Source: Muribaculum sp. (GTDB taxonomy: Bacteria > Bacteroidota > Bacteroidia > Bacteroidales > Muribaculaceae). Taken from it: a stretch of 57,071 nucleotides of DNA. The translations under genes were made by a program, and so were the position numbers. Positions 1 through 11,725 of the stretch are shown here, piece after piece (position 1 is the stretch's first letter; every line of letters starts with the position of its first letter). The stretch is taken from contig JAMPGE010000006.1 in assembly GCA_023664085.1 (NCBI GenBank), positions 1 to 57,071 on the forward strand, written 5' to 3'. A model generated the notes under the pieces. The model did not search any database. It saw only the letters and a program-made list of their open reading frames with translations, and was not told the DNA's origin.

Positions 1-99
1 TTAATTTGTGTAAAGAAATGTTAATTTTTGTAAACGTTTAAACAATCGGGGTTGCATATATGTTTATACGTGTCTGTCTATGCCGAAACACCCAGGGAT

Positions 100-425
100 G
101 GAGAGCCTCCCGGCTCGCATAAGCAGATTGCTCTTCTGCTCGATGCGCGAGCCGGGAGGCCCGCTTTCCTTGGGCAGGGAGGACCGCTTTCCATGAAAGT
201 TCTTTCTGTTGAAATGCTTGGGCAGGGAGGCTCGCTCTCCCTGAGATGCCGCTCAAGGATGGCGAGCCTCCCGGCTCGCATATACAGACTGCTCTTCTGC
301 TCTATGCGCGAGCCGGGAGGCTCGCTTTCCTTGAAAGTTCTTTCTGTTGAAATGCGCGAGCCGGGAGGCTCGCTTTCCTTGGGCCGGGAGGCCCGCTTTC
401 CCTGAGGGCCGCTTTCCTTGAGGGG
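100..425. repeat. G+C-rich palindromic repeat array
   Basis: About seven copies or near-copies of a short palindrome of the form GCGAGCC-(GGGA or TCCC)-GGCTCGC lie within roughly 320 bases. The clearest perfect copies are at 262-279, 308-325 and 356-373, with degenerate ones near 103-118, 147-164, 225-236 and 381-395. Opposed copies can pair with each other into larger hairpins: 105-118 with 147-160, and 262-279 with 308-325. Both large hairpins enclose a related inner segment containing CTGCTCTTCTGCT-like sequence. A 24-base direct repeat (194-217 and 332-355) separates units. The composition differs sharply from the AT-rich flanks. The layout resembles REP/BIME-type intergenic repeats; no associated transposase is in the window. 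Reading frames across it are low-complexity artefacts. Confidence 0.8.
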
Positions 426-552
426 TGGCTCACCTACTTGTCGGTTGGAATTATTTGCAATACTACGCAGTTAGAACCGGAAATCTTTTTAACCAAAAAA
501 TAGTTCGATAAAGTCGAACTATTTTCAATGTAGTCAGATATGAAATAGATAT

Positions 553-2043
553 TTAGAATTGAAAATATATAAACGGAGAGACTTCCGCGCTCATGAATTC
601 TATTACGAATTGTACTACTATAAGAAAGCATAGTAGTTTTACAATCCATGGGGAGCGCAGAAACAGAACCTCTGCTTTATTTGCCCATTTTTCGGGAATA
701 AAGTGAAAAATTATAAGTACGAGCATCATGATGCACCAAGTGATTCGAGCCATGAAGAATTCTGGAATTTGAGCCCAGTGGAAGTCTACAAAAATATTCT
801 TAATAATAAGGATACTTTGCTGGAAGTCGTTGGCGCGGAAAAATACCCAAAGGAGCGACACGTAAATAAACGTTATAGACCAAGACAAGAAAATAGTAAA
901 AGGATTGTCTGGAATTTTTTTAAGTATCGGCTGACATGCTTTATGCACAGCTAATCCGGCACCGTGCATTGCACCCCAGAACACAAATTTCCAAGCAGCG
1001 CCGTGCCAAAGACCGCCAATCAACATAGTTAGGAAGTTGTTAAGATAAGTGCGAAACACACCTTTACGGTTACCTCCGAGTGGGATGTAGACGTAGTCGC
1101 GCAACCATGACGAGAGAGATATGTGCCATCTGCGCCAGAAGTCTTGAAGGTTTCGGCTTTTATACGGATAATTGAAATTAATGCCTAGTTTGAATCCCAT
1201 AATGAGGGCGAGACCAATAGCCATGTCGGAATATCCGGAGAAGTCGCAGAAAATCTGCATCGTATACCCTAACACACCCATTAGGGTCTGCACTCCGGTG
1301 TAAAGGTCCGGGTCATTGAAGATCAAGTCGTTGAATTGGGCAATGTAGTCTGCAATAAGAGCTTTCTTGACAATCCCGATCATTATCAGCCAAAGGCCGC
1401 CATAAATATTGTCGCGAGTAGCGGGACGATTTTTTTCTAATTGTGGCAGGAAATAATCCGCCCTAACGATGGGTCCGGCCACGAGGGCAGGAAAGAACGA
1501 AAGGAAGAAAAGATAATCAATCCAACTGCGGGTAGGGGCAAGACGAGACTTATACACGTCGACCACATAACTTATGGATTGAAAAGTATAAAATGAGATT
1601 CCCACGGGTAGGATTATGTCCATGGGTTGGAAATTTCCTTTCACCATGGCATTCCAGTTCCACATGAAGAAATTGGCATATTTAAAATATGCAAGAATGG
1701 AGAGTGAGATACAAATTGAGATCCACATCCAGAGCAATTTTGCTTTCCGAGTGTGGCACCTATAAATTTGTTTTGAAATAAGCCAATCGGCCAGAGATGT
1801 ACCAATCAGCATCAAAAAAAACAAACCGCTGGATTTATAGTAAAAATATAAAGAGAAGGCCACAACGAACAATACCATTTTGGCCTTGCTTTTTTTGAGC
1901 AATATATAAATCGGGAGAAAAAAGATGAAGAGCAACCAAAAAAGGCCACTGGAGAAGAGCATAGGAGCCTTTTCATCATAAAGGAGCATGTCTCCGATAT
2001 TGGAGAGAGCTAATTGTATGCGATCGATAGTGAGTGGGGCCAT
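553..2043 (-). CDS. MBOAT-family membrane O-acyltransferase (AlgI/DltB-like)
   Basis: A 496-residue polytopic membrane protein with many hydrophobic segments from about residue 30 onward. Hallmarks of the MBOAT family are visible: 'ILPVGISFYTFQSISY' in the first half, 'FFPALVAGPIVRADYFLPQL' in the middle, and 'GGLWHGAAWKFVFWGAMHG' carrying the conserved histidine. Family members move an acyl, usually acetyl, group across the membrane onto an extracytoplasmic sugar or polymer. The upstream neighbour on the same strand, 22 bases away, is an SGNH-fold protein, the usual partner for the second transfer step. ATG at 2043 is preferred over the GTG one codon earlier. The acceptor polymer cannot be told from the sequence; no alginate or teichoic acid genes are nearby. 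Confidence 0.9.
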   Translation of the reverse strand: MAPLTIDRIQLALSNIGDMLLYDEKAPMLFSSGLFWLLFIFFLPIYILLKKSKAKMVLFVVAFSLYFYYKSSGLFFLMLIGTSLADWLISKQIYRCHTRKAKLLWMWISICISLSILAYFKYANFFMWNWNAMVKGNFQPMDIILPVGISFYTFQSISYVVDVYKSRLAPTRSWIDYLFFLSFFPALVAGPIVRADYFLPQLEKNRPATRDNIYGGLWLIMIGIVKKALIADYIAQFNDLIFNDPDLYTGVQTLMGVLGYTMQIFCDFSGYSDMAIGLALIMGFKLGINFNYPYKSRNLQDFWRRWHISLSSWLRDYVYIPLGGNRKGVFRTYLNNFLTMLIGGLWHGAAWKFVFWGAMHGAGLAVHKACQPILKKIPDNPFTIFLSWSITFIYVSLLWVFFRANDFQQSILIIKNIFVDFHWAQIPEFFMARITWCIMMLVLIIFHFIPEKWANKAEVLFLRSPWIVKLLCFLIVVQFVIEFMSAEVSPFIYFQF

Positions 2044-2065
2044 CACTAATTGAATTTATAAACAA

Positions 2066-10906: not shown

Positions 10907-11725
10907 TCACCAATTCTTATTTGATCTACCGGCGTTTTGCGTCTTTTCTTCAGGGGCGCCAAGACGTTTGGATCGCGTCTGATTCTCTTTGCGTTCTATT
11001 GCCTGCAGAATCTGGTTTGAGGTCTGACTATCGATATTGCCGCTATTGTCTTGATTGGAATTATTCTGATTTTGGTCTTTATTATGATTCTGATCTTTGT
11101 TTTGATCCTTATTCTGATCTTTATCCTGATCCTTGTTTTGATCTTGGTTGTTTTGATTGTTTTTGTCTTGGTTTTGCTGATTTTTAAGCTGGGCAATTCT
11201 CAGGTTTCGCCTTGCATTGTTGTCGTTTGGATTCAGACGCAATGCCCATTTGTAAGCTTCTATGGCCTGAGGATACTGCTCGGCAGAAAACTGTACGTTA
11301 CCGATATTATAGTACGCCCGCGAACTTAAATTTCCCCGGCGAACGTTTCTGGAAGCTATATCCTGAAGCTGAGACAATCCAGTCTCAATCAGATTTTTTG
11401 CCAACGAGTCATTGTTTTGAGCCAGAGATACACCAATCATCAATCTTGATAAACCGCTATTGAACATAGCGGCGTTTGAGCGTGAATGATCCTTTAATGC
11501 GAGCTGATAAAGAGAATCAGCCACAGACGGTTGGCCATCGCGATACTTCTTATTGCCTTCAAGTATCAATTTACGTTCATTTGGTGTAGCACCCTTGCCT
11601 ACGGTGTCCACTATATCTGAGTCAATAGAAACAGAATCCGTATCCTCCCTCTTGGTAGAAGTACAAGCCGAAATCAACACAGAAGATATTATTGCGAAAA
11701 TCAGCAGATTTAAATATCTTTTCAT
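10907..11725 (-). CDS. batC: BatC: TPR lipoprotein with Asn/Gln/Lys/Asp-rich tail
   Basis: 272 residues. The signal peptide ends in the lipobox 'LISAC' at residue 21, predicting an envelope lipoprotein. TPR repeats cover about residues 50-175 ('AYYNIGNVQFSAEQYPQAIE', 'AYKWALRLNPNDNNARRNLR'). From about 178 to 230 the protein is a low-complexity run of KDQN-type repeats, encoded by an imperfect 12-base tandem repeat (about 11035-11180). A short conserved tail 'NQILQAIERKENQTR' follows. The start overlaps the end of batB by 4 bases. TPR proteins of this operon are thought to scaffold the complex. Confidence 0.9.
   Translation of the reverse strand: MKRYLNLLIFAIISSVLISACTSTKREDTDSVSIDSDIVDTVGKGATPNERKLILEGNKKYRDGQPSVADSLYQLALKDHSRSNAAMFNSGLSRLMIGVSLAQNNDSLAKNLIETGLSQLQDIASRNVRRGNLSSRAYYNIGNVQFSAEQYPQAIEAYKWALRLNPNDNNARRNLRIAQLKNQQNQDKNNQNNQDQNKDQDKDQNKDQNKDQNHNKDQNQNNSNQDNSGNIDSQTSNQILQAIERKENQTRSKRLGAPEEKTQNAGRSNKNW
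11035..11180 (-). repeat. Low-complexity tandem repeat inside batC
   Basis: Imperfect in-frame units of about 12 bases, coding K-D-Q-N or close variants, run through this interval. Such tracts can change copy number by slippage in steps that keep the frame. Confidence 0.7.

Follow-up and report, generated by a model that had tools for sequence, protein, structure and literature searches.

A GC-rich palindrome array at a Muribaculum contig edge is probably a REP cluster of a REP/RAYT system with a non-canonical tag

The window, by which we mean the whole 57,071-nucleotide stretch of Muribaculum sp. DNA that was analysed, is contig C63 of a 2.16-Mb genome in 66 contigs. Its left edge is occupied by a palindrome array on the 3' side of a leftwards-transcribed gene, whose product we take to be an MBOAT-type acyltransferase. 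The features are as follows, with units given on the strand on which the tag precedes the palindrome.

1-35, reverse strand: probable beginning of the leader of an rRNA operon, TTTACAAAAATTAACATTTCTTTACA, with 16S after it in three relatives
91-424, no strand assigned: REP-type palindrome array, GC content 0.61
94-118, forward strand: unit with an AGGGATG tag and a single mismatch in the stem; left member of the inverted pair 94-171
147-171, reverse strand: unit; right member of the inverted pair 94-171, after a 28-nt spacer
174-195, reverse strand: degenerate one-armed unit, family D1
194-217, forward strand: 24-nt direct repeat, copy 1
218-242, reverse strand: degenerate unit, 4 mismatches
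255-279, forward strand: exact unit, AAGGATG tag; left member of the inverted pair 255-332
308-332, reverse strand: exact unit, AAGGAAA tag; right member of the inverted pair 255-332, after a 28-nt spacer
332-355, forward strand: 24-nt direct repeat, copy 2
356-380, reverse strand: exact unit, AAGGAAA tag
379-403, reverse strand: degenerate unit, 3 mismatches, abutting the tag of unit 356-380
399-420, reverse strand: degenerate one-armed unit, family D1
497-525, reverse strand: terminator-like hairpin with a 12-bp stem after the MBOAT-type gene, outside the repeat family
553-2046, reverse strand: 497-aa ORF, presumably for an MBOAT-type acyltransferase, with orthologues in 69 of the 111 genomes of the genus

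An earlier note, made from the sequence alone, had described about seven units of the palindrome GCGAGCC-N4-GGCTCGC (18 bp) at 100-425. The dense array is real, although 91-424 are better limits, and seven is a fair count that becomes about nine when degenerate and one-armed copies are included. Three palindromes are exact (262, 308, 356) and two have one mismatch (101, 147), all within 101-373, and about four further copies are degenerate or one-armed (174-195, 218-242, 379-403, 399-420). With up to three mismatches allowed there are five matches in the whole 57-kb window, every one inside the array; the mean over 100 shuffles was 1.17 matches, spread across the window, and one shuffle reached five. 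The GC content is 0.61 in the array and 0.30 and 0.34 in its flanks, as the description of a GC-rich array in AT-rich surroundings implied. The two copies of the 24-base direct repeat, TGAAAGTTCTTTCTGTTGAAATGC, are at 194-217 and 332-355. Parts of the array also recur in tandem at offsets of 161 bp and 138 bp. Larger hairpins formed by facing units, likewise proposed in the note, are borne out by prediction, with the inverted pair region 248-338 folding as single-stranded DNA at -34.6 kcal/mol (z -9.0) and the whole array giving a z of -7.9. Rfam reports nothing in the array, and its two matches in the window are both tRNAs. A tRNA gene is cut at the right contig end (57018-57071), and imperfect tandem repeats of 12, 18 and 24 bases occur at 11061-11182 in the region of a reverse-strand ORF. 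A phage origin of the array was considered and rejected, as a blastn comparison of window positions 80-440 with 50,697 phage records returned no match.

Loci of the MBOAT-type gene were compared in 30 genomes, this one and 29 of its 68 relatives, and none of the 29 relatives' loci has the unit downstream of the orthologue. A 16S rRNA gene begins in the downstream stretch in three relatives (L066, L080, L090; from a scan of 14 of the 29 loci), and a shared TTAACA-type element, which in the window lies 531 nt past the MBOAT-type stop, is 24-207 nt past it in ten and 422-674 nt past it in four of the 14 relatives in which it was found. Given these 16S genes and the offset of the element, the array has probably inserted between the MBOAT-type gene and the leader of an rRNA operon that itself lies past the end of the contig. 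At this site relative G029 (L065) has two palindromes, GTAGGCTTYAGCCTAC, with another stem and the tag CAAGGATT, which is common to some units of the genome studied here; no RAYT match was found in the G029 genome, which is 82% complete.

The exact palindrome class has 41 copies genome-wide, and a polarised pattern (AAGGANN plus the palindrome, with up to three mismatches) is found at 63 places on 14 of the 66 contigs, with no matches of the reversed control pattern in the same 2.16-Mb genome. The genome-wide count that the note had called for therefore disposes of its own caveat that the unit might occur only here. The unit can be written as the polarised sequence YCAAGGAWN-GCGAGCC-TCCC-GGCTCGC (as a single strand, YCAAGGAWN-GCGAGCCTCCCGGCTCGC), a hairpin with a 7-bp stem and a 4-nt loop and with the conserved YCAAGGA tag on its 5' side only. 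Among 56 copies oriented by the loop alone, GGA lies 5' of the stem in 53 and at the mirror position 3' in one; position -8 is C in 53 copies and -7 is A in 48, each of -5 and -4 is G in 54, and -3 is A in 53, and the 3' side is without comparable conservation. A minority subtype, C[T/C]GGGATT, is present on contigs C11, C30 and C36. Inverted pairs make up 15 of the 35 neighbour pairs within 80 nt, nine of them with the 28-nt spacer, and lone units at unrelated sites on C11, C19, C23 and C32 have only the tag and palindrome in common. Mapping places the units between genes, as anticipated: all 18 unit groups in the fetched loci, a count that leaves aside copies on C17, C33 and C54, sit in gaps between larger ORFs, with three of the 18 overlapped by short mechanically picked ORFs. 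Most groups have co-directional or convergent ORFs on either side, and most are downstream of ORFs. These are the general properties of REPs, namely a palindrome of 20-40 nt with many intergenic copies and a conserved, unpaired, one-sided tag, and the inverted pairs have the composition of REPINs, two inverted REPs in one hairpin. Among 60 other genomes of the genus a single exact copy was found, inside a 990-aa ORF of G009, and was treated as chance.

All unit copy numbers are minimum values, since contigs break within arrays. Both C11 (L013:1-50) and C31 (end of L021) terminate at a shared 50-nt hairpin repeat, oriented oppositely in the two contigs, and the true copy number is therefore probably above the count. 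On C36 (L023:1-282) a unit array begins ~100 bases past the apparent 3' end of a tRNA gene that is cut by the contig edge, judged by eye from a fragment not reported by Rfam.

A search of the genome for Y1_Tnp, following the proposal that a RAYT gene be looked for, found two genes, RAYT1 and RAYT2. RAYT1 (C10:17261-17854, 197 aa) encodes a Y1/HUH transposase with NHIH, W and Y motifs and is bracketed by four units on each side, three forward and one reverse upstream and an identical arrangement downstream, spaced 37 bp and 51-52 bp apart; it thus has both the domain and the flanking REP copies, inverted units included, that characterise RAYTs, and is most likely the cognate enzyme of the unit. 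It scores 36.7 bits against Pfam Y1_Tnp, above the cut-off of 23, and 61 bits (E 1.1e-16) against NCBIfam NF047646 (REP_Tyr_transpos), short of the curated cut-off of 80; NF047646 matches all 17 genus members at E<=0.001. Residues N122, H123, H125, W162, R172, Y183 and N187 are invariant in the 17 genus RAYTs. The best solved structure for a profile of these 17 relatives is E. coli TnpA-REP (4er8, E 5.6e-6), with an alignment that covers the HUH, W and Y regions, in which W94 and R104 of the E. coli protein are kept and its Q95 corresponds to T163 in RAYT1 and to A in RAYT2. RAYT1 as a query in named genomes gave no match.

Upstream of RAYT1 is a gene that we take to be DUF2723-like, and in its loci RAYT1 is absent from all 29 relatives within the fetched flank. 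Two CCCAAGGAAAG-type tag copies (L011:4888-4916, on C10) encode PKESGPQGK, the C-terminal residues of this gene's product, and the gene ends earlier in relatives, which suggests that the repeats entered its 3' end and lengthened the protein. RAYT2 (G000:C2:3968-4558, in the same genome) is 49% identical to RAYT1 and lies in what, from a reading of the ORFs, is a type I restriction-modification-like region. Directly upstream of it is an ACAGGCTTCCAGCCTGT palindrome, which the genome contains in four exact copies and a fifth that has a mismatch; two of the five have a GTAG tag.

RAYT1 homologues are present in 24 of 111 genomes of the genus, this one included, and a family-wide profile search of 297 genomes gave matches in 17 genomes from six of 30 genera, the own genus among them. 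Recurrent palindromes flank the gene at 15 of 22 RAYT loci in the genus; at the other seven, RAYT2 among them, none was found by the criterion used. There are 73 such palindromes, with a GGR-type tag on exactly one side in 55, on both in two and on neither in 16. The flanking palindromes differ between RAYTs, and three of them were counted over 24 genomes. The palindrome of the G016 RAYT occurs 60 times in G016, four times in G000 and not in the 22 others; that of G005 and G012 occurs 27 and 36 times in those genomes, three times in G052, where different palindromes flank both of the genome's RAYTs, and not in the 21 others; and that of G064 is found at 17 places in G064 and in none of the 23 others. 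Each thus reaches high numbers only in genomes with a RAYT that it flanks, with G000 and G052 as small exceptions, and in a tree the RAYT2 of G000 is the sister of the G016 RAYT. RAYT protein identity correlates with similarity of the palindrome arms, picked by hand, with r 0.40 for 16 RAYTs, a value equalled or exceeded in two of 10,000 permutations. In another genus (G222, L192) a long tandem array beside a RAYT alternates between GCACGCG-TCTC and GCAGGCG types with an AGTAGTTA tag. No work on REPs of Muribaculaceae was among the literature matches listed, as judged from the listings, which leave most subscription journals outside.

We read the array, with a probability of roughly 0.87, as a REP cluster of a REP/RAYT system (REPtron) in a Muribaculaceae species, with a non-canonical tag. 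What weighs against this is the NF047646 score short of its cut-off, the departure of the tag from GTAG and CGTC, the seven genus loci where no recurrent palindrome flanks the RAYT, the G029 palindromes in a genome with no RAYT match, and the three copies in G052. RAYT1 would bind the folded single strand, reading tag and hairpin together, and its tyrosine would nick adjacent to the tag; single units or inverted pairs (REPINs) would then be moved to new intergenic sites, where local duplication would build arrays such as that of the window, which would have landed between the MBOAT-type gene and the probable rRNA-operon leader. This mechanism is drawn from the pertinent sections of PMC8266576, PMC6006769, PMC3733652 and PMC2817692, and the inverted pairs may be the moving unit, as is discussed for REPINs in part of PMC3116915. 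The proposal of REP/BIME repeats spread by a RAYT transposase is accordingly largely borne out, with REP-type repeats and a RAYT bracketed by them and a tag other than the classic GTAG; the spread itself is argued by analogy with the IS200/IS605 and TnpA-REP literature, from one genome of the species.

Part of what the array displays could arise by local tandem duplication or recombination of old sequence, and both the 161-bp and 138-bp offsets and the 37-bp and 51-52-bp spacing of the units around RAYT1 fit such an origin. The lone units at unrelated sites share tag and palindrome alone, however, so that duplication is no sufficient explanation, and we consider an origin without any transposase activity unlikely. 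The units might instead be maintained by the host, the array serving as a topological or protein-binding spacer with only a historical link to the RAYT. E. coli BIMEs bind gyrase and IHF, and a hypothetical binding role here would suit an array that adjoins a probable rRNA-operon leader, as well as the C36 array that comes after a tRNA 3' end; yet the other groups lie beside ordinary genes, mostly downstream of ORFs, and none of the 29 relatives has the unit at the same site, which makes this quite improbable. That the units act as RNA hairpins at transcript 3' ends, terminating or protecting messages, is very improbable: the orientation of the neighbouring ORFs and the strong folding of inverted pairs (folded as DNA) are in keeping with it, but the MBOAT-type gene has its own terminator-like hairpin at 497-525, a one-sided conserved tag is unexpected in a terminator, and one group (L014) lies between divergent ORFs, though ORF picking was mechanical. 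An assembly artefact, the other caveat of the note, can be dismissed, for although C11 and C31 end inside such arrays and the window is itself a contig end, many contigs carry different arrays with unique flanks and related genomes have analogous but different repeats.

With the array read as a REP cluster, the system is real and mostly ordinary, its sequence is new, and its non-canonical tag is the interesting part. REP/RAYT systems have been studied best in Gammaproteobacteria, where the tags are GTAG. The common gut family examined here has many RAYTs whose REPs are often differently tagged, and a comparison of natural tag variants can therefore tell what in a REP is read by the transposase; REP arrays also account for the breaks in the assembly of this genome at such spots. 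Most REPs examined in the genus have a GGR-type tag, often with a TCC loop, and other genera follow only partly. In the genus set 41 of 63 tag-oriented palindromes have a TCC centre and none has GGA (ten of the 73 were not orientable), and 12 of 15 RAYT loci fit the rule, which was suggested by this same set. A held-out set from other genera (15 loci, 57 recurrent palindromes, 30 orientable) gave six TCC and no GGA, and includes several GTAG-tagged families (L187, L190, L192). Since the loops TTT, TGC and TCT also occur with GG tags there is no covariation, and a strict pairing of GGA tag with TCC loop was rejected in view of the partial fit of the held-out genera; the T-rich loop is kept. Tentatively, and with some doubt, Muribaculaceae RAYTs may have a code of their own, with a GGR guide tag at the hairpin foot, a pyrimidine loop (often TCC), a stem free to vary between RAYTs, and a guide that switches between GTAG and GGAG among close RAYTs. 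RAYT2 and the G016 RAYT, for example, are 62% identical and have ACAGGCTTCCAGCCTGT in common, with GTAG and AAGGAG tags respectively. In the Marinomonas system, according to the relevant part of PMC8266576, the REP tag served as guide to the cleavage site, and if the tag is a guide here too the cleavage site should switch along with it.

The closest parallels are the GTAG REPtrons of Stenotrophomonas and E. coli, which also have a short GC-rich palindrome with a 5'-only tag, dozens of intergenic copies, inverted pairs, and a Y1/HUH transposase gene bracketed by its own units. They differ in the tag, which is GT(A/G)G there and YCAAGGA, of GGR type, here; the CAAGGA of the unit falls outside the GTAG and CGTC superfamilies of PMC3733652. 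The Q corresponding to Q95 of E. coli is well conserved in GTAG-type subclasses, according to the subclass descriptions in PMC6006769, and its replacement by T163 in RAYT1 fits a changed tag but proves nothing, because RAYT2 also lacks the Q and yet has GTAG beside it. Inverted pairs are likewise predicted to fold as one hairpin in BIMEs and in the REPINs described by Bertels and Rainey (2011; PMC3116915, in part), where a spacing of 71 bp is given for the GI doublet; spacing here is closer, and many units are single or tandem. The class 3 TnpA-Y1 proteins, in the sections of PMC6006769 that treat them, likewise have a non-GTAG foot and many hairpin copies, and the W-T and Y-4-Q of RAYT1 and the W-A of RAYT2 are as in the class 3 motif table. 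RAYT1 has both W[TA] and Y-4-Q, RAYT2 has W[TA] only, and most relatives in the genus lack this combination, their YIxxNP motif being of class 2 type; the class 3 foot given there is CnGA, which the unit does not have, and the hosts are Planctomycetes, Acidobacteria and Proteobacteria. Subclass 2.6 TnpA-REP (RAYT group 5), in the corresponding section of PMC6006769, also has a Bacteroidota host and flanking hairpins called atypical, with a median HUH-Y distance of 82 and W-Q where RAYT1 has 60 and W-T.
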